This document shows, piece after piece, positions 1-60,170 of a stretch of 64,000 bases of DNA (position 1 is its first letter; each line of letters starts with the position of its first letter). The notes under the pieces are model-generated. The model saw only the letters and a program-made list of their open reading frames with translations, was not told the DNA's origin and searched no databases. Origin of the DNA: Amanita rubescens (Eukaryota; Basidiomycota; Agaricomycetes; Agaricales; Amanitaceae); NCBI GenBank assembly GCA_015039365.1, contig WION01000018.1, positions 248,001 to 312,000 of the forward strand, in the 5' to 3' direction. A program made the translations under genes and the position numbers.

Positions 1-30
1 CTGAAAAGACAGAAATGCATAGTCACTTAC

Positions 31-1629
31 TTCCTGTTGTTCATGTGATGCAACCATTTGACAAAGAAAAAATGGAGTGACACCCACTCTCTAGAATTGC
101 ATTGGTGACTCAATAAGACTTCCTGCAAACAGCAAAAATATACTGCCAGTCACTCACATCCTGTTGTTCATCACTGGATGAGGGAAACTGTCTGGAAAAG
201 ATGCAGTATCACTTACATACTGCCATAGGTTGTGTGATGACAATGAGCAAAAGATTACTGTGTTACTTACAGTCTGTTGGTGCTGTGGTGAGGGATGTGA
301 CATGAATTTATGAAAATGCAAGAAAGGAAAAGAAAAGCTGTTTTACTGACTTTCTGTCAATGAGATGAGATCATGACAACATGGCATAGAAGAAAAATGT
401 GGTGTCACTCACATCCTGTTGTTCATGGTAATGAGTTGTGATGACTTGCAAACAAGTACAGGGGCCGTGTCACTCACTTCCTGTTGAGTATGCAATATGA
501 AATGACAAAATGGTTCAACAGAAAATACACTTACATACTGTTGATTTTGAGAGATATAAAGAGAATGACAAGCTGTGCTGCAAAGTACAAAAGCACTTAC
601 CCACTGTTGGACAGCAAATGACATGAATAAGTTTGTCTGACTCTGTCCAGATATTTGCAGTGACAAACATCCTGTTTATTGACAATCAGTGTTTCTGTAC
701 ACTGCCAAAGAATCATGCAATTCTCACTCTCTGTTGAATTAAATTAACAAAACAATTTAACAAAAAAAAATTGCAATGTCACTTACTTCCTTTCAATCAT
801 GTGATGAAATTATGATGAAGAGGAACATGCACTGCCACTCACTTCCTGCCAGTCATAAAATGTTGAGATATCCTATAGATAACTGTACAGCATTTGGCAC
901 TCACTCTCTGTAAATGAAATGCATAGGGTGTACAAAAATGAGTGCAGTCTCACTTACTGCCTGTTGTGCATACTATGGGATGTGGTGAGACTACTAAACA
1001 CTTGTTGCTCACAATCTATCAACAATTTGAACATCAGAAAACAAGCATCAGTAGTACAATGTTGCATACTCTCTTAATCAGATAAGATGAATCTGTGTGC
1101 CATCAAGAGAATAGAGTAACTCACATTCTATGTGGCATAGCATGACATGTGACTGCCTGGCCAATGCAGCATTAACACTCACTGCCTGTTCACATGGGAT
1201 AAAAGGTGGTTATGCTGTTCTCAAAAAAGTGCAACTCACCCTCTGTTTGCCATATGAAGAATCTTGATGAGAGCATTCATAGAAATTTGCACATCACTTA
1301 CTTCCTATTGCTCATAGTGGGACAAGTTCTGTCTGTAGAAGGTACAGCATCACTCACAAACTGTTTTTGAAAAAAAAAAAGATCATCAAAGACTGACTAA
1401 TAACTAAATTCTTGTCACTTGCCCACTGAAGTTGTACAAGGTACATATCAGGTATGCAAATGAGCATATTTTGTGCAATTTCACTCACATTAATTTCATT
1501 GTGTTTCTTGAGACAGAGTTTTGTTGTCAAACTGCAATGTGCAAGATGAAGCTCAACATACACCCAGCTCATCATTTTGTTCAGTGCAGTTCATCATCAA
1601 AGAGAGTGAATTTCTGTACTCACATCTCT
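31..1629 (-). other. Array of 24 putative 3-nt micro-exons plus short upstream exons
   Basis: Read on the minus strand, the same pattern recurs: an acceptor-like AG, three bases, then a donor-like GT. The triplets lie at 31-33, 88-90, 158-160, 217-219, 271-273, 351-353, 413-415, 478-480, 535-537, 601-603, 669-671, 728-730, 787-789, 843-845, 905-907, 958-960, 1013-1015, 1070-1072, 1125-1127, 1183-1185, 1240-1242, 1302-1304, 1358-1360 and 1423-1425. Mean spacing is about 60 bp (range 53-80), which gives introns of fungal size. Seventeen donors are GTRAGT; one (at 1422) is GCAAGT. Acceptors are CAG (18), TAG (4) or AAG (2). Upstream, exons of 18 nt (1489-1506), 6 nt (1562-1567) and 6 nt (1624-1629) continue the spacing, and all have lengths divisible by 3. 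The spacer sequences look unrelated to each other. None of the triplets is a stop codon; GAA, AGA and GAT are commonest. The array runs off the left edge. It could be a micro-exon gene, an alternative tail of the GTPase gene next to it, or a strongly diverged satellite. Confidence 0.6.
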
Positions 1630-1700
1630 CTTGAATTTGTGCCAACAATAACTAATTATTGCTGTCATATATTTTGCACAAACTAAAGCTTACTTTTCGG

Positions 1701-3065
1701 TTAACCTGTTTTTATCTCAGATTTCCCATATTCATCTGAATCTGTTTGGGAAGTTACCCAGTAATGAGGGAACTTGCTGAGGATAATAATAAAAACTTTT
1801 TCCAATGGTGTATCCAGTTGTCGACTCATAACATGCCTAGACACTGAACATTTGAAATAAATATTTCAGTGTGATCCACTCACTTGAGCCCAGATTTAAC
1901 ACAAAGACCAAGATTGTTCATTTGAGTTGAGACAAAGAGTTCTCGTAGACTGGCATCATCAATTGCATCAGCAGTCCTCTCAGTCAATTCTGGACAGTTC
2001 TTCTCTGGTATGTCCATATCTATGAACAATATAATGTCCTGGTAATTGATTTGTAGAATATTCACCACCCTCACCTTCCAATCGCACATATCCCTTTGGA
2101 GGATATGTAGTATTAAAGACTTTAGGGAGATAAACTCCTTGGAAAGTGATTTCAGCATTTTCTCTGGCCTTGTTCCACTTAACTGCATCATCCACTATGT
2201 CATTCAATTTTCCAGATTCTTGGATTAGTTGACCATCAAATTTGGTGAATACAACCACCAAGGGAACTGCACAGATAGTATTTATACAGAGTTAATACTG
2301 CATGCTGTGCCTGGTCAAAAATATTGATAGGCATCAGACTTACCTTTCCCTGTTCCCTTGTCAAAGAATTCAAGTTCTGCAGGCAGAATTGGACGTGTAC
2401 TGTCCATTGGTATACAATACCTATGCATGAAAGCCTAGATCAGTCATCCACACAAATTACAAATTCAAAGATACCAAATGGCATGCAACTGGTCTTTCAG
2501 CTGAGCTGCAGCAGACCGCTTGTCAATAAAATCCCAAACAACTTCTAGCTCCCTCCTTGCACCAGACTCAAAACCTTGGGAGTCATGAAATATAAAGTTG
2601 CTCCCTTCATATGTAATCTGATGATCAATCTCATGTATGCCTCTCTTGCAATGTAAAGTACATCCAAGTCAGTGCACAGATCAATATTTAATAACTTCAA
2701 GTTGACTCACCTCTATTGATGGAGTCACATGGGTTTTATTTGGTGCCAGTTTGTTGTCTAAAAGGAAGAGAAGATAGAAAAGGAGTGGATTAGTTGTTAT
2801 TAAACTAACCATTTTCATCATATATTATGATTGGCTGTGTTCCCTTTGCTACACCACAGACCTTCTCAAGAATTGTAGTCTTTCCAGCATTGGCTCTTCC
2901 TATTATAAGAATACGAAAGTGAGGGCACTTGTATAGCTCTTTGCGTTCTTTTACATCTGCACCTGACATTTACAACTCAATCTTCAACTGGCACATCAAG
3001 ACAAGATAGTACATATTTGACTCACTCGATGCAGGATCAGATACACCCACAATGTCTGATTTCAT
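1701..3065 (-). CDS. P-loop GTPase (AIG1/G-domain type, fungal family)
   Basis: Eight exons read cleanly on the minus strand: 3065-3026, 2962-2810, 2757-2711, 2644-2475, 2420-2344, 2266-2075, 2019-1884 and 1836-1701. All phases agree and give about 316 residues. The protein starts MKSDIVGVSD and carries the G1/P-loop GRANAGKTT at about residues 35-43, a G3 motif in HDSQGFE, and the G4 motif TKFD after a hydrophobic strand (VPLVVVFTKFD). It ends with LSKFPHYW and a short acidic tail. Such soluble GTPases are expanded in Agaricomycetes; their cellular role is unknown to me. The region is clearly more AT-rich than the rest of the window. A good alternative acceptor (AAAACAG, ending at 1706) lies just before the stop codon, so splicing could skip the last exon and run into the micro-exon array downstream. 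No disabling change is visible. Confidence 0.9.
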
Positions 3066-3501
3066 CACAACTACTAATGCCGTGTGTGTAGGAAGTGAAG
3101 GATGGTATATCAAGCTCAAGATAAGAGCAGGAAAGGATAATGAGCTCCGGAGATACTTATGCGACAAAATATATGACCGCCCAGTCGAAGAGGCAAGGTG
3201 GGCGGACAGCGCGTCAGATTCAGGAGATGAGCGCACGGAAGAGCCTGCAATTGTGAGTCACGCCGCATCCCCACGGGTAACTACAATCAGAGAACTCCAC
3301 ATTTATGCCGTTCGGCAGAGACATCTTCGCGATAGTTCCGATTCTGACATTGTCAACGTGATCTCCAAAATCTGTTCTCTCGCTCGAGATCGGAAAACAT
3401 CTTTCTTCCGAACTCCACCACTATTCCAAGACGTTCTCACTCTCCGGATCTACATGTCACCCCTATCCAAATATGTACCAATGCCCTACAATGGTAAATA
3501 G
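3052..3501 (+). CDS. Open frame of unknown status upstream of the GTPase gene
   Basis: An uninterrupted plus-strand frame of 149 codons overlaps the first exon of the minus-strand GTPase gene by a few bases. The predicted protein is hydrophilic, with an acidic SDSGDERTEEP stretch near residue 60 and no motif I recognise. The left end overlaps a well-supported gene on the other strand and no introns are obvious, so this may be a chance frame over the GTPase promoter region. I see no other gene between 3066 and 3593. Confidence 0.2.
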   Translation: MSDFITTTNAVCVGSEGWYIKLKIRAGKDNELRRYLCDKIYDRPVEEARWADSASDSGDERTEEPAIVSHAASPRVTTIRELHIYAVRQRHLRDSSDSDIVNVISKICSLARDRKTSFFRTPPLFQDVLTLRIYMSPLSKYVPMPYNGK

Positions 3502-3593
3502 TGGAGAAAAGAGCGATCGGCCACGTACAAATGCCCAGCCGCTGGTCCTGAGTTTTTAACCCAATCGAAGGCACGCACAGTAGTAATGATATG

Positions 3594-4089
3594 TTACACG
3601 GTTACTTTGTTCTGGAAGGACTCCGTTCAATCGATTTTTAGTCCATGAACTGGAATCTCGTTGGCGACAAGACCACCCACAAGACGGTCGGTTGATCAAC
3701 GAACTCTTCTTGATGACCAAAGAGCTGTGAAAACCTCGCTTTGTAACCCATTTGAAGCTCAGCGTGAATCCCGAAGTGCCTACGGCCAGAGAGAAAATTT
3801 ACAGAGACGCACGAAGACTCAAGAGCCTGGCATATTTCGATCGTTAAACGTTAACACATCAACCTACCACACATCTCAGCAACGTTGAGTCGTTGACTCA
3901 CAGCAAAACCAACTTCATGAGTATATGTCGAGGTTGCAGGGCATGGGTGGACCTGAGGACGGAAGATGACCTTAACTTTACCATAATACCGTCCGGCGCC
4001 CTCCTTAACTAGAATACATCAAGGGCATGCCGAGGAGAGTTGTAAAGACCCGCGATAACTAGTGGTCACAGATCGGGTTTGAGTGCCAT
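3594..4089 (-). pseudogene. Decayed copy of the DsbA-like thioredoxin-fold gene
   Basis: This stretch aligns by eye to the gene at 4449-5332. The start region, the GGQYYGKVK-type strand, the region around the paired EFF exon and the C-terminal LVANE block are all recognisable. It is broken in several ways. The start of exon 2 together with intron 1 is missing. About 250 bp present in the other copy between 4546 and 4797 is deleted, and both deletion edges carry the short repeat gtcggt. Single-base losses shift the frame near the C-terminus (for example near 3655-3675). The deletions do not coincide exactly with intron borders, so this is a decaying DNA-level duplicate and not a processed retrocopy. 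Confidence 0.8.
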
Positions 4090-4166
4090 GGCATAGAGAA
4101 CAGGCTTGCGTGGCTCGGAGTCGCGAGAGTCTCGGACTGATTTTATTCTCGGATTCAACCTCCAAG

Positions 4167-4305
4167 ATGCCCATCAACTTTTCCACTTATATAACTCAAC
4201 TTAACGATGATCTAGCAGAAGAAAACGGTCCCAACCTCGCATATCTCCTCCGCCCAACAAGTCCCCATGGAAAGGATCTCGTGAAGAGTTTCGGAACGGA
4301 GAGAT
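4167..4305 (+). pseudogene. Truncated first exon of a CSN12-like gene
   Basis: The first about 135 bases match the start of the CSN12-like gene at 5402: MPINFSTYITQLNDDLAEEN, then LLRPTSPHGKDL. The copy loses one base near 4290 and then leaves the homology at about 4305, where the second copy of the duplicated block begins. It sits head-to-head with the decayed DsbA-like copy, in the same arrangement as the intact pair to the right. It therefore marks the right end of the left duplication unit. Confidence 0.8.
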
Positions 4306-4448
4306 CGGCCTCGCACAAGTGTCCGTCCGGGTGTTGGTCCTGAGTTTTTAGTTCAATCCAAGGCACGCACAACAGTAAGGCTCCAACCATTGTATTTCCA
4401 TTTGAACGAAATTAAATAAAATAATACACATGAGCTTTGTTTGATATG

Positions 4449-5332
4449 TTACACGGTTACCTTGTTCTGGAAGAACTCCGTCCAATCGTTTTTAGACCAT
4501 GAACTGGAAATCTCGTTGGCGACAAGACCATCCCACAAGACGGTCGGTGAGACATGGATGCTATTTTGTCTGCCAAATTTGACTTTATATACATCAGACG
4601 CATATCACTTCACCGAGTGATTGGAGAGTACATACTTGCATATTTCATGTCATCGGTAACACCGGTGCCTCCATTGGCCGTAGACTTGAGCTCCAGCAGA
4701 TCCTCAAACTTCCCAACTGCGGGTTCAGGCAGGACCTGCGAAGCTAATTCTTTAAGCCTCTGGCGAATTTGTAAGGCAGTCATACGTGAAGTCGGTTGAT
4801 CAAAGAACTCTTCTTGATGACCGAAGAGCTGTGAAAACCTCGCTTTGTAACCCACTTGAAGCTCAGCGACCCGAGGTGCTTACGGCTAGAGAGAATTTGT
4901 AGAAATTCTCCGGAGACGCACGAAGAGCCTGGTATATTTCGATTGTTAACCAACCGCACATCTCTCAGCGACGTTGACTCACAGCAAAACCAGCTTCATG
5001 AGTATACGTCGAGGTTGCGTGCCATGGCTGGACCTGAGGACGGAAAATGATCTTCACTTTACCATAATACTGTCCGCCCTCATTGACTAGTGGCTTTATG
5101 ACTGTATCGATGGTAGCCATCATCTTCGCACTGACCACAAAAGTGTTAGATAATATCATTCATTCAATTACATGATTGGTTCGTGCCTGTATGGACAGAC
5201 ATAATCCACTAATCAAATGAGACAGTAAGCTCTTGAGTGTCGGACTCTGTACTTACAGAATACATCAAGGGTATGAGGAGAAGTGTAAAGACCCGCGATA
5301 ACTAGCGGTTGCAGATCAGGTTTGAGTGCCAT
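4449..5332 (-). CDS. Thioredoxin-fold (DsbA-like) oxidoreductase family protein
   Basis: Minus-strand gene with about five exons. Exon 1 starts at 5332 (MALKPDLQPLVIAGLYTSPH) and ends at 5257. Exon 2 contains KMMATIDTVIKPLVNEGG and the family block VKIIFRPQVQPWHATSTYTH, ending at 4983. Exon 3 is ALRASPENFYKFSLA. Exon 4 is LFGHQEEFFDQPTSRMTALQ through LLELKSTANGGTGVTDD, ending at 4636. The last exon starts at 4582 (KFGRQNSIHVSPTVLWDG) and ends at the stop at 4449. The order and sequence fit a fungal thioredoxin-like family related to DsbA. The join into exon 2 (about 5100-5140) is not clean, and the CPF-type motif expected before SAKM is missing. The gene may therefore have lost its redox cysteine or be damaged there. 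It shares a 69-bp intergenic region with the divergent CSN12-like gene. Confidence 0.7.
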
Positions 5333-7192: not shown

Positions 7193-7265
7193 TGGGACCA
7201 CCGCGGATTGAACGCGGGACCTGTAGATCTTCAGTCTATCGCTCTCCCAGCTGAGCTATGATCCC
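7193..7265 (-). tRNA. tRNA-Phe (GAA)
   Basis: On the minus strand a 73-nt cloverleaf can be drawn. The acceptor arm is GGGATCA paired with TGGTCCC. The D-arm is TAGCTCAGCTGGGAGAGC (A box), the anticodon loop is CTGAAGA with anticodon GAA, and the T-arm contains GTTCAATCC (B box). The discriminator base is A and there is no intron. A T6 run follows the 3' end (A-run at 7182-7187 on the plus strand) and should terminate Pol III. It sits just downstream of the CSN12-like gene, on the opposite strand. Confidence 0.92.
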
Positions 7266-7497: not shown

Positions 7498-9968
7498 TCA
7501 TGACCGCCCATAGGTACCCTCTTCGTCATCGCTATCGCCGACATTAAACATCGGCTCTACATCCTCTTCGAGATAACCACTTCCGACAGCCTTCGCTTTA
7601 CCTTTTGCACTATCTCTTGGAGGGTATGGATCTGGTGCCTCATCTTCATCCGCATGACCGTTGTAGCTGGTCAGGGGTATAGCCTCCTCTGAGGCCTTCG
7701 TTTGGGGTAATCGAACGCGATTCCTGCGGACGCGACACCACAGGAACACGCCAATTCCAATAAAGATAAGAACAAGAATAAGCGCGGCGGATCCCGCGTT
7801 GTAATATGCTGATTGGATCGAACGTTTGGCAAATGACTTGTTCAAAACCGAGATGATGGCTCACCTTCCCACATTGCTTTATCTTGCTCCGGCGTTTTAC
7901 CCGGGACAGTTAGGTTCGTAGGTTTCGCTGTGCTCGTGGCAATAAAGATTGGTTTTGTCTCTGTTCCGATGCTACTTGGTATCCTCGCTGATCCATCAAC
8001 GATCGCAGAGAAATTGACACCCATGAACCGAAGGATCATATCGTGTGTAATGTGAGGGACGTCATAGGGCGCCATGTGTGAAGCATTGAAGATCTGCAAC
8101 GGGGCATCAACATGCTGCCGCCAAGACGCACGGATCGCCCACGCTTACTTTGGCATAAGTTAGGTTCCTTGATGTAACCCAAGTACCGGCGGGTACATTG
8201 TTGACGCTCCATGATTGAGTTTCAACAGTCTATGAAGAATGTTAACCTAAAGTTTATGAAGTATGGTTAACAAGAAGTTTACCCCCAAGCCAGTCCCGCC
8301 GTTCCACGTCATCGATTTCATCATAGCCTCCAGTCCGACATAATTACATATCAGGTCCTGATCACCAGCGAAAATGAGGACGGGTAACTTTGAGAGTACT
8401 TTGGGCAACACGGTGATAGAGGCATTAAGCTTAGTTTCCTCAAAATGAGAATGAATTGTGCCGCGGCATTCAACCCATTTCCCAGAATGAGAAGATGCAT
8501 GAAGGGCGTTTACAACGTCGGAACGCTAATTGATGAGTTAGCAAGGCGCTAACTGAGGCCGCTGCAGGCACGCACGTCTAGATAGGAAGTCACATGTTCG
8601 ATGTCTGGTGGCCAATTCATGCCGCAGGCGGGTTTCGTGTCGTCAAGACGGACGTCATAAATGTTTATGCACATTTCCTCCCCGCCCACTCTGTCAATGA
8701 TGTTTAGACCGGTTGGTCAAAGTTATGTACATTAACAACGCACTTTTTCTCCCGGACTTTGGCAACATCTAGTATAAGTGAAGCGCATTCGGTGACCGAC
8801 ATAGGTTCGAAGTTGATCTTGGACATGGCCTCCGTACATTTGTCGGAGTATTTTTTGGCCATTTTCCAAGGCTATACTCCTTCTAGGTGGGTGCCCTTGA
8901 CATACGAACCAATAAGAGCTTACCTCTGAGTTTTCTTCTAGAATCCCTACTTTTACTGTAAAATCGAGGTATGCTGGGTATTGTCGCCGAGGATCTATCC
9001 AGCCATTACCGATAGCGACTCCTCGGACGGGAATATTGAGATTAGATTCGAGGATGGCATTAGCTGGCACAGCATATATGAGTTGAGCGTCAGGCTTTGA
9101 GGGAAAGGGGCATACCAAAGTACGGTATCCACTGTCCAGCAAAGCTTTCTCCGCCAAGGTAGGTCTGCAACAGCAATGAATGGATGCACATGAGATTGAT
9201 AAATGCATTAACGAACATCCATCTGTTTGTATTTCGGAAAGACGGCGTAAAAGTTCCTCAGAAATACCAAAAATTGTTCTGAAGCCTTTTTTTCCTTGTC
9301 AAAGACGGTATCATAGTCTATAACGGCAACATACCTCGTCAGGGGTTCTTATGAAATGCTCTGAACTGGTATAGGAGAAACCCGTCCCTGCAGGTTGATC
9401 GACTGCAGAAACACGAGTGAGATGCAAGCTCAAGAGAGAGTTAGGCCAACGTACCATAAACCATGGTGGTATATTCTTCCCAACCGCCTTCCTTCACTCC
9501 AAACCCTCCTTTCCCATCCATCCTCCAAGGACCCACCTCCATCATAAGTCCATCGAAGGAAGAACACCCTGGACCGCCCTGTGCTTCGTCAGCGAAAAAG
9601 GAACTTCGATTGATAGAAGATTGCATACATTGAACCAAAATAACACTCTCTCCTTATCCGCTGTCCTTCTATTCTCCACGACTACGAAAAAGAGATGAGC
9701 GAACACCTCCGTAGACGAGGATCTATCATTGGCTTTAGGGTCTGAGAGAAGATTTCCAGCATATATTGTGAGGGGATGGTTAGGGTCTTGGTGTATATCA
9801 GGTAAGGATGGAACGTAAAAGGACGCAGCAGATGGTACTAGTAAGTGACGTGAGCGGTGGGGTAGTGCGAAAGAAAAGAAATAGATACTTACTGTCTGTT
9901 GGAGCGCCTATGACAGGTATAGAGGCAGCGAGTAGGACAGTGCCCGCCCATAGAAGCCGGATAAACAT
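7498..9968 (-). CDS. KEX1: Kex1-type serine carboxypeptidase, membrane anchored
   Basis: Minus-strand gene with many short introns. Exon 1 (from 9968) encodes a signal peptide, [20 protein letters not shown]. The mature part has [19 protein letters not shown], the oxyanion/substrate block [38 protein letters not shown], and the catalytic serine motif [16 protein letters not shown] (about 9150). It continues with [20 protein letters not shown], the catalytic Asp region [20 protein letters not shown] (about 8350) and the catalytic His region [17 protein letters not shown] (about 8070). A transmembrane helix ([17 protein letters not shown]) and an acidic cytosolic tail ending [12 protein letters not shown] follow. 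All three catalytic residues are present. Kex1 trims C-terminal basic residues from secreted precursors in the late Golgi, including pheromone precursors in yeast. The gene is transcribed divergently from the thioredoxin-like gene at 10159. Confidence 0.93.
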
Positions 9969-11244: not shown

Positions 11245-11338
11245 CATGTACTTGTTGTATTTTCTGCATGTATTACTAGTAGTACCGCCCGGAAACCTTT
11301 GCTCGCGCGATAGTTGAAAAGGGGAATCTATTTTCAGT

Positions 11339-11420
11339 TCTCTGCTAGTATATCGGTTAGTACACGCGCCTGTCATTCTGATGGACGCGCGAAAGCTGGG
11401 TTCGACTCCCAGGCAGAGAG
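11339..11420 (+). tRNA. tRNA-Asp (GTC) with a 10-nt intron
   Basis: The acceptor arm TCTCTGC pairs with GCAGAGA, with discriminator G. The D-arm is TAGTATATCGGTTAGTA and the T-arm carries GGTTCGACTCC. The anticodon stem CGCGC/GCGCG encloses CTGTCA, then ten extra bases (ttctgatgga), then C. Removing these ten bases leaves the standard loop CTGTCAC with anticodon GTC. The insertion is at the canonical position between 37 and 38. A T6 run at 11424-11429 provides a Pol III terminator. The intron is unusually short but in the correct place. Confidence 0.88.
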
Positions 11421-11586
11421 TTCTTTTTTGTTCTCTTCCGCTTTGGAACCCAGTTCGTCATTGCTATGCAAAGTCCATTGTTAACACTACTGGCTGGCCA
11501 GAAAGAGGGACGTATGTAGTCCGAGAATACAGACAACAAAGACTAGAGAGAGATAACAAAGCGCTAAACATAACATATACATAGTC

Positions 11587-12865: not shown

Positions 12866-15853
12866 TCACCGAGCCCCAGAATGAGCCTGCATCACCAGCA
12901 AACTTGCATTTAAATTCATCACGACCATTGACGCTCCCACGTCCCCCAGTGTCTTGGCAACCGAGGTGCCAATAGACGATCCATGCTCAGTCATAATCTG
13001 GCGCAATTCGGCTGCGTGCGATTCCGTCGCCATCCTCCTCGACCGACCTAGCACGATAATAAGCTCCTTATCCTGCTTGAGCAGGTTGTTTGCCTCCTCG
13101 GCAACGGTGTGCAAAAGCCCGGGAGTGCCCTTGGTGACAAAGTTGATTCGTGATAATGCTTCAAGTTCAAAGGCGTTCAAGCCATCCTTATGCACATACT
13201 TGTCCCACAACAAGTTGTCTGCCGTATCGGAAACCATTCTGTGCTGTGCCGTAACCTCACCGTAGTGAGTATCGGCTGCTGCCATTGTCTGTCACGTGTC
13301 CGCTTGTCAGTATACTGGCCCAACACGGAAGAATCAACGAAAGCTGACCTGATGAATGAGTGTCATGTGCGGATGCGTAGATCGTGATGGTTCCACTGCC
13401 GTAGCATTGGTCATCAAAGGAGAAAGTGGATCGGCCTTGCTCAATCGCAGTACAATGGCAGATGCATCCTTGCTCATGCAAAGTTGGACTACAAATGCCA
13501 ACGCCAGGCGATCATCAGGTCCTCCGAAGAAGGGCAAGAGTAGGTGTCGCATTGACTTGGCTGAAGTCTTCAAGGAAGGAGCGCGATCAACGTACAAGGC
13601 AATATCGACAGGCGAATGATTGAAAACTCTGCGGACGTACTCGGAATAGACAATCGAGCTTGTACTATCCTGCGTTGTCGATCTGTGGAATATACTGTCG
13701 AACGGATTGTGTGCTTCTGCCTTCGTTCCATCGTGAGACCCGATATGATGCCCACTGGACCATGGGACAACGATCATTTGTGAAGCGGATCGTTCAGCAT
13801 GCTCAGCAATTGCGTTCGGGTATTCATCATAGTTGACGACGGCGATGCTGGAAAAAACGGGAATGCAATTGAGATGTCCGAACGTCTTGAAAACAGTGAT
13901 AAGAGGATCCTCCAGCAAAAGTGCCTCGGATTCCGTAGAACGAAGGACAGCAGATGTACGTCCAGACAATTCCATTAGCCTAAGAGCATCCACGCTCATA
14001 GAGAGGGGTAAAAGAGCGGGATCATTGATTGTCTTTTCGGCAGATGACATAGGGGGGGTGCTGGCTTTCAAAAGTTGGGTGAGGGTCATTGCAGCCGGCA
14101 ATTGCTCAAACCTGTCGAGGGCAATCGTTATTCGGGTCTTGTATGAAAAATCACTATCCGCGGAAAGCTTGCCATCCAAGTCGCCTCGAGACATAACTTC
14201 CGAGCGCGAGGTATGTTCGTAAACACGGTGTTTTGCGGGATAGAAGAGTAGTACAAGAGGGGTCGTCAAGAACGTCAGGATAATGGCGTGCACGACAAAC
14301 ATGGAAAACACTCGGGTATCGAGGTAACCCGCTTGAAGGCCGATGTTAAGAACGATCAACTCCACCAGTCTAAGAATCCGAAGTCCTGGTCAGATGCTGA
14401 TACAAGGCACAGGTATACGTCATTGAATTTTCTCACCCTTTACATGCCATCAAAGATCCGATGGCTCCAGACTCGCGCCAATTGTAACCGGTCAGTTTAG
14501 CCGAAACTGCACAAGCAAAAAACTTGGCCGAGAAAGCAGTGATACAGATTAGGATGGTGTAGCCCCACGTAATTCCGTTATCCAAGAGGCCAAGATTCGT
14601 CCTCAAACCAGAGAGTGTGAAATACTATTCGAGCAATAACATTAATATTTGACGTTCGATGCTAGAGCTTATGAACGTACGATAGGCATGAATAGGATGG
14701 ACACAAGATCTTCTAGCTTCTCCACCAATGAAATGGCGAATCCATTTTCGTGTGGAATCATAAGGCCTGCCAAGAAGCCACCTAAAAAAAGACCGTTGCG
14801 GAATTATTCGGCTATGTTCAGCATGAAACGTACCAAAGATAGCCTGAACACCGATAATATCGGTAAAGAGTGCACAAACTAACACGATCAAGAGTGTTAC
14901 TGTCATTAGCAGCGTCGTGGGGGTTCCTCGTTCCAAGCTACCGGTTCGTCTTGCCAGCCAAACATACCCCCATCTGATGGGAAACAACAAGAAGATTGTA
15001 AAGCCTGTGCAGCTGAACAGAACCCAAAGGGCGGACAGACCAGAAGACGCATTAATCAATGCGACGGTGAGTACCAGAAGAATCCATCCGACGACATCAT
15101 TGCAGACGCCAGCTGAAAGTGCGACAACGCCAACAGAGGTATCAAGTAACTTCAATTCCGTCAAAATACGACAGAGGACAGGAAAAGCTGTGATCCCGAC
15201 GGCGACAGCAACGAAGAGCAAAAAGTATCCAAAGTTGACCTCAGGATTGATGAATTTATGGTATACCCCAATGCCGAGCGCTGCACCAAGACCAAGGGGA
15301 ATGACAAGGCCAGCCACCGCGACTGCAGCAGAATTGGCCATGTTACGCTTGAGAACACGTACGTCCAACTCGAGCCCGATCAGGAAGAGGTAGAACACAA
15401 GGCCTATATTAGACGTCAAGTTGAGCAATGGCATTGATGACGTCGGAAAGATCTTCGCCGTAAAACCAGGAATTCGACCCATTGCGGTTGGCCCTAAAAT
15501 CACGCCCCCAAGGATTTCAGCGATAACCCTAGGCTGTCGTATCCGACGGAGTATGACGGCCAGTATTTGGGTTACACCAAGAATGAGGACTAGGAAACGC
15601 GTCGAGCGTCAAAGCAGTTTCTCGACGTATATAATAGACTGTCACGAACCGACTTGGATAACCCATAATGGGAAGGGATCGTTCGGATTGTAGACGACTG
15701 GGTTGAGTCCAGTAATAACGCCACCCTGAGCGACGCGTTGGTAAATACAATGGCTTGCAAGTAATATGAGCTGAAACTCACCTGTGCGGTCGCCTTTGCC
15801 CTCCGGGTGAACTGCTCGTACACCACGGCAGTGAGTTGGGTAAATTCGCCCAT
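12866..15853 (-). CDS. KHA1: K+/H+ antiporter, CPA2 family (Kha1-like)
   Basis: Minus-strand multi-exon gene starting MGEFTQLTAV at 15853. An exon with GGVITGLNPVVYNPNDPFPL is followed by a CPA2 transport domain: VTQILAVILRRIRQPRVIAE, ILGGVILGPTAMGRIPGF, IGLVFYLFLIGLELDVRVLK, GITAFPVLCRILTELKLLDT, ALSAGVCNDVVGWILL (the ND motif conserved in CPA2 exchangers) and DIIGVQAIFG. Then come GFLAGLMIPHENGFAISLVE and ELIVLNIGLQAGYLDTRVFS. The C-terminal half is a cytosolic domain of about 400 residues ending ASLLVMQAHSGAR. Kha1-type proteins exchange K+ for H+ in endomembranes (Golgi in yeast). The phases I checked by eye agree, with introns of about 50 nt. The start is upstream of the first membrane segment, as in homologues. 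Confidence 0.93.
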
Positions 15854-30256: not shown

Positions 30257-32741
30257 ATGAGAGTGGGAGTCTTGACAGGTGCGTGAACGTCAATTAAACC
30301 GTGCACAAATGTTGATGTTGAACGTTGAACGTAACCGAACTTTGCATCATCAATATCGGCACCTGTAAGTGAGTGATACGGCCTCTCTCGATCCAGGTGC
30401 AGACCGATCTGGTCCACTTGTCCGAGAGCTCCTCCTTGAGGCATCGTCGAATCCTCATCGACCGAAGTATTCGTGCGAAGTGCACGCAATTGTGCCTGAC
30501 GATGTAGTTCGCATCCGCGAAACAATCGCTTCGTGGGCAAGGCACGGTGACATGGATTGGATCATCACAACAGGAGGGACAGGATTCGGCGTCCGAGATT
30601 GCACGCCGGAGGTGAGAACGATACGATAGATGCGCTTGATGCGATCCTCATACTCGCCAATGTCCGCCTTACCTTCTAGGCGATCAAATCCTATCCTGGA
30701 TCGTGAAGCCCCTGGGCTGGTCCATCTGTTGCTCTCCAGCTCGCTGAAACATACGCCACTTGCGGCCCTATCTCGGCCTGTGGCGGGCACTGTACGAAAT
30801 ACACTTGTCGTAACATTACCCGGCAGTGTCAAGGCTGTAAGAGAAAATATGGAAGTTTTGCTAACGGACGGGATGATTTCCCATGCTATCGAGCTAATTC
30901 GGGGTGGGTCTGGTCAAGAAACGCATGCTGCCCTGGCTAGTAGCGACGTTAGTGCGCAAGGTCATTCTCACCGCCGTCAACATAGCCATCAACACCACCA
31001 TCACCACCAAGGTCATGGCCACCACCACCACCACCATAGCCATAGCCATGACCTATGAAATCCCGCAGCCAAGGACAGTGCTTACACAAGATACCACAGC
31101 ACCCGGTAAGCTCTTATGCCTTATCGTCCTCCATCACCAATGTTATCATTATGTAGTATCTGCTAGACAGCGCCAGTCGCCTTTCCCTATCTTGAGCTTT
31201 GACCAGGCCATGGGGCTTATCCTGGGGAAAATAACTCCCCTTGCCACCGGTGATCCTTCCGGTAGGCGCTTAAATTTTTTTTCTTCTTTTTTTTAATATT
31301 CTTTATTTCTTGGTCAAGGTTACGCCCGCTCTCAGAGGTCATGTCCTTGCAGAGGACGTGTACGCTGCTCAAGACGTCCCATCGACATTGACAACCAACG
31401 TGGATGGTTACGCATTACGATGTAAGCCGCTTGGGCAGGTCTTTCGTAGGCTGTATCTAATTTCCGCAGCTTCTGACGTACCAGGAACGTACAACGTCGT
31501 TACATCCCAAACTCACCTCATCACGGACCCACTGGCTCCTGGATGCATCTACAGGGTCAATACTGGTGGTCCTTTGCCGCCTGAAGCGGACGCAGTCATC
31601 ATGGTAGAGGACACTCGCCTTGTCTCGTCACAAGCGGACGAGGACGGAGCGGACGAAGAAGAAAAAGAAGTGGAAACACGAGCACAAGTTAATGCGGGCG
31701 AGAATGTACGAAAACCTGGCTCTGACGTGCGCAAGGGTGATCTTGTTCTTCGGGCCGGGAAAAGAATTATCAGCAGCGGCGGAGAGATCGGTACTTTGGC
31801 TTTCGTAGGGAAAAAGGAGGTTAGTGATGTTCTTTTCTGAATTTCTGGTATTCTTACCAAGATTTTGCAGGTCAACGTGTACAAAAAACCCGTGGTCGCA
31901 ATCCTCAGTACGGGAATGAGATTGTCGACGTTCAAAGCCCGACGCCACTCGCTGGCAATGAGTGGGGTGGCGTTGTTGATACGAATCGGCCTTCGTTGCA
32001 GGCGGCACTAGAGGGAATGGGTTACGAAGTCAGTGGATTTGGGAATCGTTCTCGACAAGTTGAGTTGGCTTGCCATTTTTAGATATGATCTCAAATTCAA
32101 CGGATAACAGGGTGGATGCACACGTAGATGCAATCGCGCGGGGTTTACAGTCTGCAGACATACTACTGACCACGGGTGGCACATCTATGGGTTCAACTGA
32201 CTTACTTAAGCCGGTCATAGAGCAACACTTTGAGGGAACGATACACTTTGGACGTGTAGCGATCAAGCCGGGAAAGCCAACCACCTTTGCTACGATACCT
32301 TCGGATGGTGGCGTTGAGAAGCCAATATTTGCGCTGCCCGGAAATCCGGCCTCTGCGCTCGTTACCTTCCATATTTTTGTTCTCCCTGCGCTGAGGAAGC
32401 TCTCCGGTTACCCTGAACGTCTATGTCAGCTGCCACGTGTCCCTGTCAAGGTGAAAACCTTACTATTATCGATGGTCGGAACTGATTTTCAAATTCGGTA
32501 GCTCATGGAGGACATGAGCCTCGATCCCCGAATGGAGTTCCATCGCGTAACGGTCGGAGCGGACGGAGAAGGCTTGAAAGCACGTAGCACCGGCGGCCAA
32601 AGATCCAGTCGCGTAGCTAGTCTGAGTGGAGCAAATGCTTTTGTGGTTTTGCCACCGAGGACGCCCGAATCATCTGGAAGCCTCGCTGCAGGCGCAATGG
32701 TGGACGCCGTGCTCATCGGGGAGATCGAGGTGAATAGTTGA
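30257..32741 (+). CDS. Gephyrin-type molybdenum cofactor synthase (MogA-MoeA fusion)
   Basis: Starts MRVGVLT at 30257, with an intron inside the next codon. The N-terminal MogA-type domain has VSDTASLDPGADRSGPLVRE, MDWIITTGGTGFGVRDCTPE (the TTGGTG motif), AIKPILDREAPGLVHLLLSS and LPGSVKAVRENMEVLL. A linker follows in which most residues are His (about 30965-31050). The MoeA-type domain has PILSFDQAMGLILGKITPLA, VPSTLTTNVDGYA, VNTGGPLPPEADAVIMVEDT, KPGSDVRKGDLVLRAGKRII, ADILLTTGGTSMGSTDLLKP and IFALPGNPASALVTFHIFVL, with a C-terminal domain IV ending VLIGEIEVNS. Together the domains adenylylate molybdopterin and insert molybdate. The fungal order MogA then MoeA matches gephyrin/CnxE. Apparent one-base frameshifts lie near 31053 (insertion) and 31913 (deletion). 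Confidence 0.9.
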
Positions 32742-36735: not shown

Positions 36736-37604
36736 TCAGCGACGCTGGGTTGATGGTCCTTCGAGGTGGGATCCGCCTGCTGCTAGATAACCATCATAGG
36801 CCCCCTCATGTGTACCGTGCGACGGGGTAGGGGACCAATCTCCGGAGCTGCCGCTTGCGTAAGACGGCGATGTAAAACCACCATCATGAGATCCAGCAAA
36901 TGTGGACTCTGGAGAACTAGCCCACGGTTGATGATCCATTGCGGCGGGGCTTATGTCACCTACGGACGAACCATGGACGCTGCTGGCAGTTGAATAGTTG
37001 TAGGTGTAGAAATAGGACGGTAGACCTTGGTGAACAAAAACTCCGGGCTGGTAAGACAAGTTCTGTAAACCATGATGGGAAATTGCAGGATGCGGATGCT
37101 GTCCAGCATCCATGGGAGGATTAACTTCAATTTGCGGAATAAACGATCCAGCGCTGCCATTGTGCGCAATGGCCGAAGCATCCGCAAGAGATAGAGGCAA
37201 GGTGGGCGGAAAAGGAGCGTTTGGTTCATCGAGCGCTGTGGCTGTGGTCGGGGGTAAGGGAGCGGTTTGTTGTACGGGGGAAGGGGAGGCAGAAGGAAAC
37301 CTCGAGCTTGAGCATGAACCGATGCGTCTATATGAGCATCTTCCACCCTCCATTGATATTATTCCTAATTCAGTGGGTCCGTTCGGGGTAAGAAAATTCC
37401 CTCTTCCCGCGATGCGCTCTCCCCACCTGTGTAGCTATAAAACGTGATGAGTAGGCGCGCCGTTAACGGGCTAAAGTGCGCGCTTACAAAATTTCGTGGG
37501 ATATGCCGTAGGACTTCTCTTTGGATACGCCTTGCGCGAGTCTCAGTATTCTGGGTATTCCGAGTACGTGAAGGGCGAGATCCGGACGTTGTACTTTGAG
37601 ACAT
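36736..37604 (-). CDS. Pro/Ser-rich protein, lineage-specific family 'M' (copy M1)
   Basis: Exon 1 starts MSQSTTSGSRPSRTRNTQNT at 37604 and ends RIQREVLRHIPRNF at a GTAAGC donor. After a 51-nt intron the second exon reads LHRWGERIAGRGNFLTPNGP, TELGIISMEGGRC and continues through a disordered region with VGDISPAAMDHQPWASSPES and TFAGSHDGGFTSPSYASGSS, ending HLEGPSTQRR. It aligns along its length with the gene at 42298-43235 (WG..RGxxLTxNGxxExGxIS) and is nearly identical to the broken copy at 59148-59986. No known domain; the short N-terminal exon and the LTxNG block are the conserved parts. Confidence 0.75.
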
Positions 37605-42297: not shown

Positions 42298-43235
42298 TCA
42301 GGTACCTCCACTGGGCCGGATCGATGTCGTATCCCGAGGCTCTACGTACTCCCCTCGTGTTGTATCAATGAAGTCCTCATGCACACTCTGTGATGGTGCA
42401 GAAGATGAGGACCCTGACCAACTACCGGGGCTAGCGCTGTTATATACAGGGGATGAATAGGAATACGGTGGCGAAGAGGCCGGGAAACTGCCATTGAGCG
42501 ACGCATGGCCGGTAAACGGAGAATTGGCCCATGAGTTAGCGGCGGGGCTTACACCACCGAGGACGGACCCGTGGGGGCTCTGATGACCGTCCACGTTCGA
42601 GGGTGCTGTGAAACCGCCGTACGCATGGCCTGCGAGCGGAAGACCGGCCCATGAATTGGCGGAAGGGCTTGCGCCCCCCAGGACCGAACCAAGATGGGTA
42701 CTGTGAACATCGAAGACCCGCGGGATGGGACCTCCGGGGAAATATGAAGGACCTTGCAATGGGTTCCGGAGATAAGGAAGAGCAGTCACAGGTTGCGTGT
42801 AGTGCAGAGGATCCGTGAGGACATAGTTGTATGAGACATGAGGGTGATAAGCCCCAGCTGCAGAAACATTGGGAGCCGACTGGGGCAAAGACTGTTCGTG
42901 AAATTCGGGATTGGCCGTTGTTGTGGCCAGTAGAGGAACTGGTGCTGGCGTAGCAGGGCGACTTGAGCCAGGGGGTGGCTCAACCTGATAGATACCTTCT
43001 CCATTCGCATAGGAAATTAAGCCAAATTCAGAGGCTCCATTTTCAGTGAGATATGATCCTCTCCGCCCGAATGGCACTCCCCACACGGGAAGCTGAAAGT
43101 TTGGATTTAGTGACGTTATTGAGAAACAGGGGATAGGCGTACAAATTCTTCTGGAACATAACGCTGGACTTCTAACTGAACGCGACCGTTCACAGCGTTA
43201 GGAGCGTTTGAAGAGCTCGGTGTTGTGCTAGACAT
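42298..43235 (-). CDS. Pro/Ser-rich protein, lineage-specific family 'M' (copy M3)
   Basis: Exon 1 starts MSSTTPSSSNAPNAVNGRVQ at 43235 and ends QRYVPEEF at a GTACGC donor. After a 50-nt intron exon 2 reads LPVWGVPFGRRGSYLTENGA, SEFGLISYANGEGIYQV and then a Pro/Ser/Gly-rich region. This contains two imperfect internal repeats, GSVLGGASPSANSWAGLPLA and GSVLGGVSPAANSWANSPFT, each followed by GHA. It ends TTSIRPSGGT. The exon structure and the WGxxxxRxxxLTxNG block show homology to M1, but the two are much more diverged than M1 and M2. Function unknown. Confidence 0.75.
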
Positions 43236-59063: not shown

Positions 59064-60170
59064 ATGAACACCACGAGCTGAATGATAATAAAAGCATTAT
59101 GCTCCTGCCCCAACTTCATACTTCTCTGATCCACCGATTCTAATCCCATGTCTCAAAGTACAACGTCCGGATCTCACCCTTCGCGTACTCGGAATACTCG
59201 GAACACTGAGACTCGCGCAAGGCGTATCCAAAGAGAAGTCCTACGGCGCATCCCACGAAAATCTGTAAGCACGCACTTTAGCCCGTTAAAGGCGCGCCTA
59301 CTCATCACGTTTTATAGCTACACAGGTGGGGAGAGTGCATCGCGGAGAGAGGAAATTTTCTCACCCCGAACGGACCCACTGAATTAGGCATAATATCGAT
59401 GGAGGGTGGGATGCTCATATAGACGCATCGGTTCATGCTCGAGCTCGAGGTTTCCTTCTGCCTCGCCTTCCCCCGTCCAACAACCCGCTACCTTGCCCCC
59501 GCCACAGCCACAGCGCTCGATGAACCAAACACTCCTTTTCCGCCCACCTTGCCTCTATCTCTTGCGGATGCTTCGGCCATTGCGCACAATGGCAGCGCTG
59601 GATCGTTTGTCCCGCAAATTGAAGTTAATCCTCCCATGGATGCTGGACAGCATCCGCATCCTGCAATTTCGCATCATGGTTTACAGAATTTGTCTTGCCA
59701 ACCCGGAGTTTTTGTTCACCAAGGTCTACCCTATTTCTACACCTATAACTATTCAACTGGTTCGTCCGTAGGTGACATAAGCCCCGCCGCAATGGATCAT
59801 CAACCGTGGGCTAGTTCTCCAGAGTCCACATTTACTGGGTCTCATGATGGTGGTTTTACATCGCCGTCTTACGCAAATGCCAGCCCTGGAGATTGGTCCC
59901 CTACCCCGTCGCACAGGGGTGCCTATGGTAGTTATCTAACAGCAGGCGGATCCCACCTCGAAGGACCATCAACCCAGCATCGCTGAATTATCCATTCTCC
60001 AGAGATACGAGATATCCCATTTTCTTTCCGTCACTCCCCATGCTTTTTACTTGTCTATGTTTTTCTACTCCTGTACGATACCGCGCGTTCTTGATATTTA
60101 ATAGCTTCTCTAGCGCATGTAGTACTATGTTGTGTTAAGCCTTGACTTCTGGAAAATTATCATTCGGCAT
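59064..60170 (+). pseudogene. Inverted duplicate of family 'M' gene (copy M2), frameshifted
   Basis: About 1.1 kb nearly identical to the reverse complement of 36560-37690, covering the promoter side, both exons, the intron and the 3' flank. Exon 1 starts MSQSTTSGSHPSRTRNTRNT at 59148. In exon 2 the reading LHRWGECIAERGNFLTPNGP, TELGIISMEGG ends in a stop at about 59418, because two bases present in M1 are missing. A further shift occurs near 59500. Downstream the frame is open again (ALDEPNTPFPPTLPLSLADA) to 59986. The coding parts differ from M1 by small losses such as a missing VHGS. It is probably a recent duplicate that no longer encodes the full protein, although sequence error could explain part. 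Confidence 0.75.

Follow-up and report, generated by a model that had tools for sequence, protein, structure and literature searches.

Candidate arrays of single-codon exons in a P-loop GTPase gene family of Amanita rubescens

Does the short motif that recurs at one end of this stretch of Amanita rubescens DNA mark a run of exons that are each one codon long, or a repeat that is not spliced at all? The whole stretch analysed, referred to here as the window, is 64 kb long (C90:248001-312000 of an assembly of 75.7 Mb in 786 contigs), and from position 1 to 1629 its minus strand carries AG-NNN-GT units at a spacing of ~60 bases. A sequence-only reading had interpreted these units as micro-exons, an interpretation that the present analysis of the DNA supports. 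We propose, with a probability of roughly 0.8, that the array consists of spliced and translated single-codon exons in a P-loop GTPase gene, and that units of one codon plus one intron have been gained, lost and reshuffled, giving hypervariable protein segments.

Across both strands of the 64 kb, the strict form AG-NNN-GTRAGT has 22 matches, including 17 at 25-1362 on the minus strand, compared with 3.23 on average and 10 at most in 100 dinucleotide shuffles of the window. The 24 codon-sized units, the 17 exact GTRAGT donors and the lack of stops among the triplets that had been described all held on recounting (none of the 24 codon exons in the window is a stop), the 24 being made up of 20 exons linked by a chaining script blind to stop codons and four added to them, namely TGG at 1425-1423 with its GC donor and three weak-donor exons accepted by eye. 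Upstream exons of 18, 6 and 6 nt are likewise present and are preceded by an additional one of 12 nt; the boundaries of these small exons were set by comparison with paralogs. Tandem Repeats Finder, run at its lowest score on window positions 1-5000, returned nothing, because the focal introns are too diverged. The predicted features, in window coordinates, are as follows.

1758..2969, minus strand: seven ordinary exons of a P-loop GTPase-like protein (manual stop-free exon model, ATG at 2969, 287 codons), at 2969-2810, 2757-2711, 2644-2475, 2420-2344, 2266-2075, 2019-1884 and 1836-1758
1694..1705, minus strand: 12-nt exon VNRK, phase 0, with counterparts aligned by eye in three paralogs
1624..1629, minus strand: 6-nt exon RD, phase 0, from the exon model
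1562..1567, minus strand: 6-nt exon LG, phase 0, the weakest boundary, with a 3-nt exon here in paralogs
1489..1506, minus strand: 18-nt exon KHNEIN, phase 0, conserved in paralogs
1423..1425, minus strand: codon exon TGG (W), with a GC donor gcaagt common to C1:28282, C25 and C583
31..1360, minus strand: 23 further codon exons, predicted to read FERANRIAREERDWYEDKTYDRE, 20 of them from the script and three by eye, as in the next four lines
Minus strand: TTT 1360-1358, GAA 1304-1302, AGG 1242-1240, GCA 1185-1183, AAT 1127-1125, AGA 1072-1070 (weak donor gtatgc, by eye)
Minus strand: ATT 1015-1013, GCA 960-958, AGA 907-905, GAA 845-843, GAA 789-787, AGA 730-728
Minus strand: GAT 671-669 (weak donor gtttgt, by eye), TGG 603-601, TAT 537-535, GAA 480-478, GAT 415-413, AAA 353-351
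Minus strand: ACT 273-271, TAT 219-217, GAT 160-158, AGA 90-88 (weak donor gtgggt, by eye), GAA 33-31
1..30, minus strand: 5' part of the intron after the last codon exon in the window; the array goes on outside

Elsewhere the window holds ordinary genes (a serine carboxypeptidase at 8732-9298, a Na/H exchanger at 14625-15608 and a MoeA N-terminal region at 31274-31840), together with tRNA-Phe at 7193-7265 and tRNA-Met at 11338-11421. The ORFs 59423-59986 (+) and 36736-37434 (-) encode nearly the same proline-/serine-rich stretch, which has a relative at 42298-43197; scans of 59423-59986 and 42298-43197 gave no Pfam match.

The GTPase exons enter the focal array in phase 0, and the exons of 12, 6, 6 and 18 nt are also in phase 0. 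Read directly, the predicted protein contains the P-loop GRANAGKT and a TKFD motif, which we take to be a Walker A motif and an NKxD-like GTPase motif, respectively. It matches Pfam MMR_HSR1 at E 3.2e-4 with 21.2 bits, 0.7 bits under the cut-off of 21.9, and scores 20.2 for NCBIfam small_GTP, below the cut-off of 42.5; its best matches among solved structures are the GTPase Der (E 0.0027) and a septin-like protein (E 0.015). As a TRAFAC P-loop GTPase it thus stays under the curated cut-off but carries both the Walker A and the NKxD-like motif. The locus had been described as the tail of a gene, which proved mistaken: beyond the left edge of the window the array reaches ~C90:245448 and is followed by ordinary in-frame exons. 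In full it comprises ~65 codon-sized exons, 24 in the window and ~41 to the left; the chaining script, which ignores stops, links 57 of them (55 of 3 nt and two of 9 nt), and weaker ones accepted by eye bring the number to ~65. If spliced as predicted, ~65 consecutive codons would each sit on an exon of their own (two exons appear to carry three codons), with introns of ~57 nt between them. The predicted spliced string begins KHNEINWFERANRIAREERDWYED, and after its last codon exons (..E-E-I, then L) the frame runs on into ordinary exons reading PELLSLMEVTRA, PAGCQILV and AMAIIAKLSFWIMNQ; the C583 array exit reads PELLLLFGHNSAEFSAT, PTACKILV and SINIIAKLSFWIMKP (both by eye), and C1a has one extra base at this point. 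A TAG stop in a 25-nt exon was considered as the array end and dropped, given that exons of 36 or 51 nt plus 25 nt, in frame with a conserved IIAKLSFW, fit three paralogs better by eye.

The same layout recurs throughout the assembly. A strict two-unit pattern has 3,053 matches genome-wide (1,654 + 1,399) and its reversed control none, and the P-loop exon of the GTPase family has at least 150 matches (150 scored of 261 candidates, haplotype copies included). The 100 two-unit matches listed (contigs C1 to C3) form eight clusters, seven of which have a GTPase family member upstream on the same strand; among the matches listed, one isolated pair, at C1:571152, has none. For the fixed context CAACAG-N(k)-GTGAGTGACA there are 1,646 genomic matches at k=3, as against 13 at k=2 (three in C13, ten in C749), seven at k=4 (two in C13, three in C749) and 15 at k=6. 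One locus, on C3, seems to have two arrays, as a second one of 35 regular units lies at C3:133371-135633 behind a IIIIAKLSFWINKP exon at 132455; in the same GTPase gene a Copia-like retroelement with a 2,000-aa open frame (118325-126000) separates the first codon exons (115890-116358) from the long array (126809-132008).

Several lines of evidence suggest that the triplets are coding. No stop occurs among the triplets of six genes, either in 322 units matched by regular expression (~20.5 expected from base frequencies) or in 340 chained units, and one is found among the 1,646 triplets in the fixed context genome-wide (TRA 1, TAG 0), all of these tests counting units as independent, though duplicated units are not. 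Third bases of array codons are A153, T145, G22 and C2, compared with A87, T102, G54 and C44 in the focal GTPase exons, and synonymous choice in the arrays looks restricted by the need to splice. Four arrays can be called old, namely the focal one (C90), C1a, C583 and C1b. All six pairs of their residue strings align above 500 shuffles each (z 3.3-4.0), with at most one of the 500 shuffles reaching the real score in each pair; of 236 aligned codons, 92 specify the same residue, and intron identity is 0.552 at the aligned positions versus 0.529 at random ones. Conserved triplets between diverged spacers, sought here in paralogs, are hence a property of these four arrays, whereas the younger array C1c aligns significantly with none of them (0 of 4 pairs, z 0.2-1.4). 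Splice signals in the old arrays are similarly regular: 83 of 90 good acceptors with a GTRAGT within 40 nt have it at offset 3, and GTRAGT occurs 132 times on the gene strand versus six on the other in 13,471 bases.

The frame kept on both sides, the near-absence of stops and the length peak at 3 nt support the earlier suggestion that selection acts on triplets and splice signals rather than on a repeat body. Its companion, that the spacers look unrelated to each other, needs correcting: they are slightly related, with a mean body identity of ~0.52-0.54 versus 0.48 for shuffled letters, and in other genes they are nearly identical. These results also bear on the idea that the array is an unspliced, non-coding satellite that has diverged around a conserved AACAG-NNN-GTGAGTGACA motif. 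The units of young arrays are indeed homologous tandem repeats, but a satellite would leave unexplained the frame continuity with the flanking exons, the exclusion of stops and a conserved triplet string amid decayed spacers, and we find it scarcely credible. Two further comparisons were uninformative or negative within their scope. The allelic pair C25/C583 has 0/120 triplet differences and 15/2,205 other intron differences, with fewer than one triplet change expected, and helical amphipathicity, examined because the C3 and C8 strings look coiled-coil-like, was not significant in any of eight codon strings (p 0.11-0.77). C25 and C583 agree at ~99% through the array, after which alignment is lost abruptly beyond index ~5436 of each segment.

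Young arrays have the opposite character: their introns are ~98-99.6% identical and the codons between them differ. In C13, 41 of 47 introns equal a 62-nt consensus, and the codons between include CAA, CTA, CGA and CTT. Per-site diversity of codons and introns, respectively, is 0.301 and 0.0042 in C13, 0.662 and 0.0166 in C79, 0.529 and 0.092 in C8, 0.440 and 0.023 in C749, ~0.6 and 0.19 in C3 (25 recognised codons) and 0.56 and 0.20 in C1c (11 recognised codons). C13 and C254 are 99.0% identical upstream of the array (1,003 bases) and 97.7% downstream (873 bases), and despite these near-identical flanks their arrays of 47 and 36 introns have unrelated codon strings. In the young array of C254 there are codons with C as third base (ATC, CTC, GAC), which older arrays almost never have (2/322).

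Unit duplication, unit loss and one chimeric intron can all be seen in the sequence. An 18-unit block is repeated within C79, a block picked after the location of shared markers was seen, and its copies differ at five of 18 codons (11 of 54 nt) and at ~3 of 1,116 intron nucleotides. The TTT/CGA and CGA/CAA differences lie between matching markers; the other three are neighbours, which unit loss and gain could account for. The chimeric intron joins TTT with a 9G marker, found elsewhere in C79 after TTT (twice) and TTG (once), to a 65-nt variant, found after CGA in the first block. The three contigs C79, C239 and C667 share one codon order, with one CGA unit fewer in C667 than in its near-identical copy C79.

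Could the likeness of the youngest introns be an artefact of assembly or polishing, in which reads from repeats were forced to a consensus? The 2-nt exons CA and GA in C13 and C749 resemble homopolymer deletions of CAA and GAA, and many odd-length exons look like lost letters in AA or TT. Such errors could not produce the old arrays, nor C79, C8, C3 and C1c with their intron differences of 2-20%, nor the same codon order on three contigs, and as a general explanation we regard them as highly improbable. C13 has two exons of 2 nt and one of 4 nt, and C254 one of 4 nt; in C749, 14 of 45 short exons are 2 or 4 nt or shorter, with lengths of 0, 1, 2, 3 and 4 nt in the array. The 2- and 4-nt exons in these three arrays would break the frame unless they are assembly errors; alternatively, the copies may be dead. 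The very young C749 array could be a dead copy, a newborn array before selection or a case of uncorrected indel errors.

In the mechanism that we propose, duplication, unequal exchange or conversion within homologous introns would lengthen and rearrange the arrays, and recombination in introns would move the codons between them. Every exon is a whole phase-0 codon, so the gain, loss or exchange of a unit would change one residue harmlessly. Selection would exclude stop codons and set the residues; old arrays would be those that have settled, with conserved residues and decayed introns, and young arrays would be hypervariable in their residues. For the variety of codons between near-identical introns we prefer the reading in which selection favours variety among the codons of an old pool, reshuffled by recombination, to the alternative that the contrast arises from homogenisation of the introns alone, for example from intron RNA. 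One part of this mechanism, growth by units, meets contrary observations. Young codon strings do not align with old ones. Identical neighbouring codons are no commoner than chance (p 0.07 in C13, 0.21 in C79 and 0.67 in C8), which gives no support to single-unit duplication and, together with an intron identity in C3 that is flat with distance (0.697 between adjacent units, 0.699 beyond 15 units), argues against slow tandem growth by single units.

The flat identity in C3 would also be expected had copies of a single mobile intron entered an old, ordinary coding stretch behind each of its codons, so that only the introns are new. The young introns of different genes share one consensus, their core having 1,412 genomic matches with at most two mismatches and none in the control; like introners, they are nearly identical introns spread over numerous separate sites. 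The codons vary independently of intron similarity, again in keeping with such a burst, and the 3-9 bp target duplications that some introners leave (PMC9860276) could explain exons of 3 nt. Nothing known, however, lands insertions exactly every 3 nt over dozens of codons; the young segments of C13 and C8 stand inside old arrays as added codons, array length differs between paralogs, and block duplications carry codons and introns together. A search of little power found no contiguous genomic copy of the spliced C79 codon string. Introners resemble the young arrays in being many near-identical spliceosomal introns in one genome (PMC9860276); unlike introners, which are scattered over many genes, the array introns follow one another at one-codon intervals within a single part of one gene family, and the arrays carry unit duplications. 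We consider an introner burst unlikely.

In the reading that we favour, the codons would be translated and the introns removed one by one, probably from 5' to 3', because a 3-nt exon has no room for two spliceosomes: each removal would add one codon to the growing upstream exon and complete the next 5' splice site. In recursive splicing, with its zero-length exons and RS-exons (PMC6224609), a 5' splice site is rebuilt at the exon junction after removal of the upstream intron; in the proposed array every codon in turn would do so. The comparison raises the possibility that codon exons are normally skipped, with the array forming one or a few long introns, or contributing an arbitrary subset per transcript, and its sites acting as recursive-splicing stepping stones. 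All exons are symmetrical, so any subset keeps the frame, and four of nine array ends examined (C90, C1a, C1c and C3) have a site like a zero-length exon, a pyrimidine-AG followed by GTRAGT, after the ATT exon and between I and L; the site has a weak form in C583 and is absent from C13, C254, C79 and C667. Conserved residue strings in old paralogs and near-absent stops would nonetheless require most codons to be translated at least sometimes, and habitual skipping seems to us very unlikely.

Among known genes with tiny exons, the schistosome micro-exon genes (MEGs) have exons of ~6-36 nt. They carry much of their coding sequence on tiny symmetrical exons, and alternative subsets of these keep the reading frame (PMC4350168). 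The focal family has a MEG-like layout as judged from its DNA, with a coding stretch in very small symmetrical exons of which subsets stay in frame; it differs from MEGs in having one-codon exons, dozens in a row, homologous introns of ~57-62 nt and a GTPase host protein. Exons of 3 nt do occur in nature, for example in Drosophila homothorax (PMC7392893), and for the microexon of Trichoderma Xlr2 the abstract of PMC11121469 states that functional microexons were previously undescribed in filamentous fungi. Both are, like the focal exons, very short or 3-nt exons spliced in nature, but they are isolated and not in arrays. No array of 3-nt exons is described in the open-licence PMC literature searched, where phrases for 3-nt or one-codon exon arrays are absent.

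In the HNWD family the repeat is a protein domain of ~42 residues and the homogenised part is coding; in the focal arrays a repeat contributes a single residue, and it is the intron that is homogenised. This fungal NLR family of Podospora is otherwise similar in consisting of nucleotide-binding proteins with repeats homogenised except at variable residues and with recombination between repeats (PMC1805685, PMC2873952, PMC12222747). The focal protein is not of the fungal NLR type (NACHT/NB-ARC with WD40, ANK or TPR), as none of these domains has a Pfam match in it at E up to 1. The arrays would probably serve to give GTPases from a large multigene family a variable segment, possibly for recognition, which is the weakest step of the proposal. 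A bolder version, possible but on balance doubtful, is a codon-cassette system in which thousands of interchangeable units of one codon and one intron, in hundreds of GTPase loci, are spliced in order and possibly included variably; their introns would be recombination handles for the in-frame insertion, deletion and shuffling of single residues, and the whole would act to diversify recognition proteins.

Should the splicing be what the layout suggests, the focal gene would be the limit case of a gene in pieces, with one-codon exons and more than 60 of them in a row; the assembly has at least 150 loci that match its family (haplotype copies included). Because no 3-nt exon is recognisable as an exon, it would offer a direct test of intron definition and of splicing order. 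Genes of this kind would be likely to escape gene-prediction programs, and others may therefore await annotation elsewhere. The introns of this family would act as spacers for recombination, through which a protein could be altered residue by residue.
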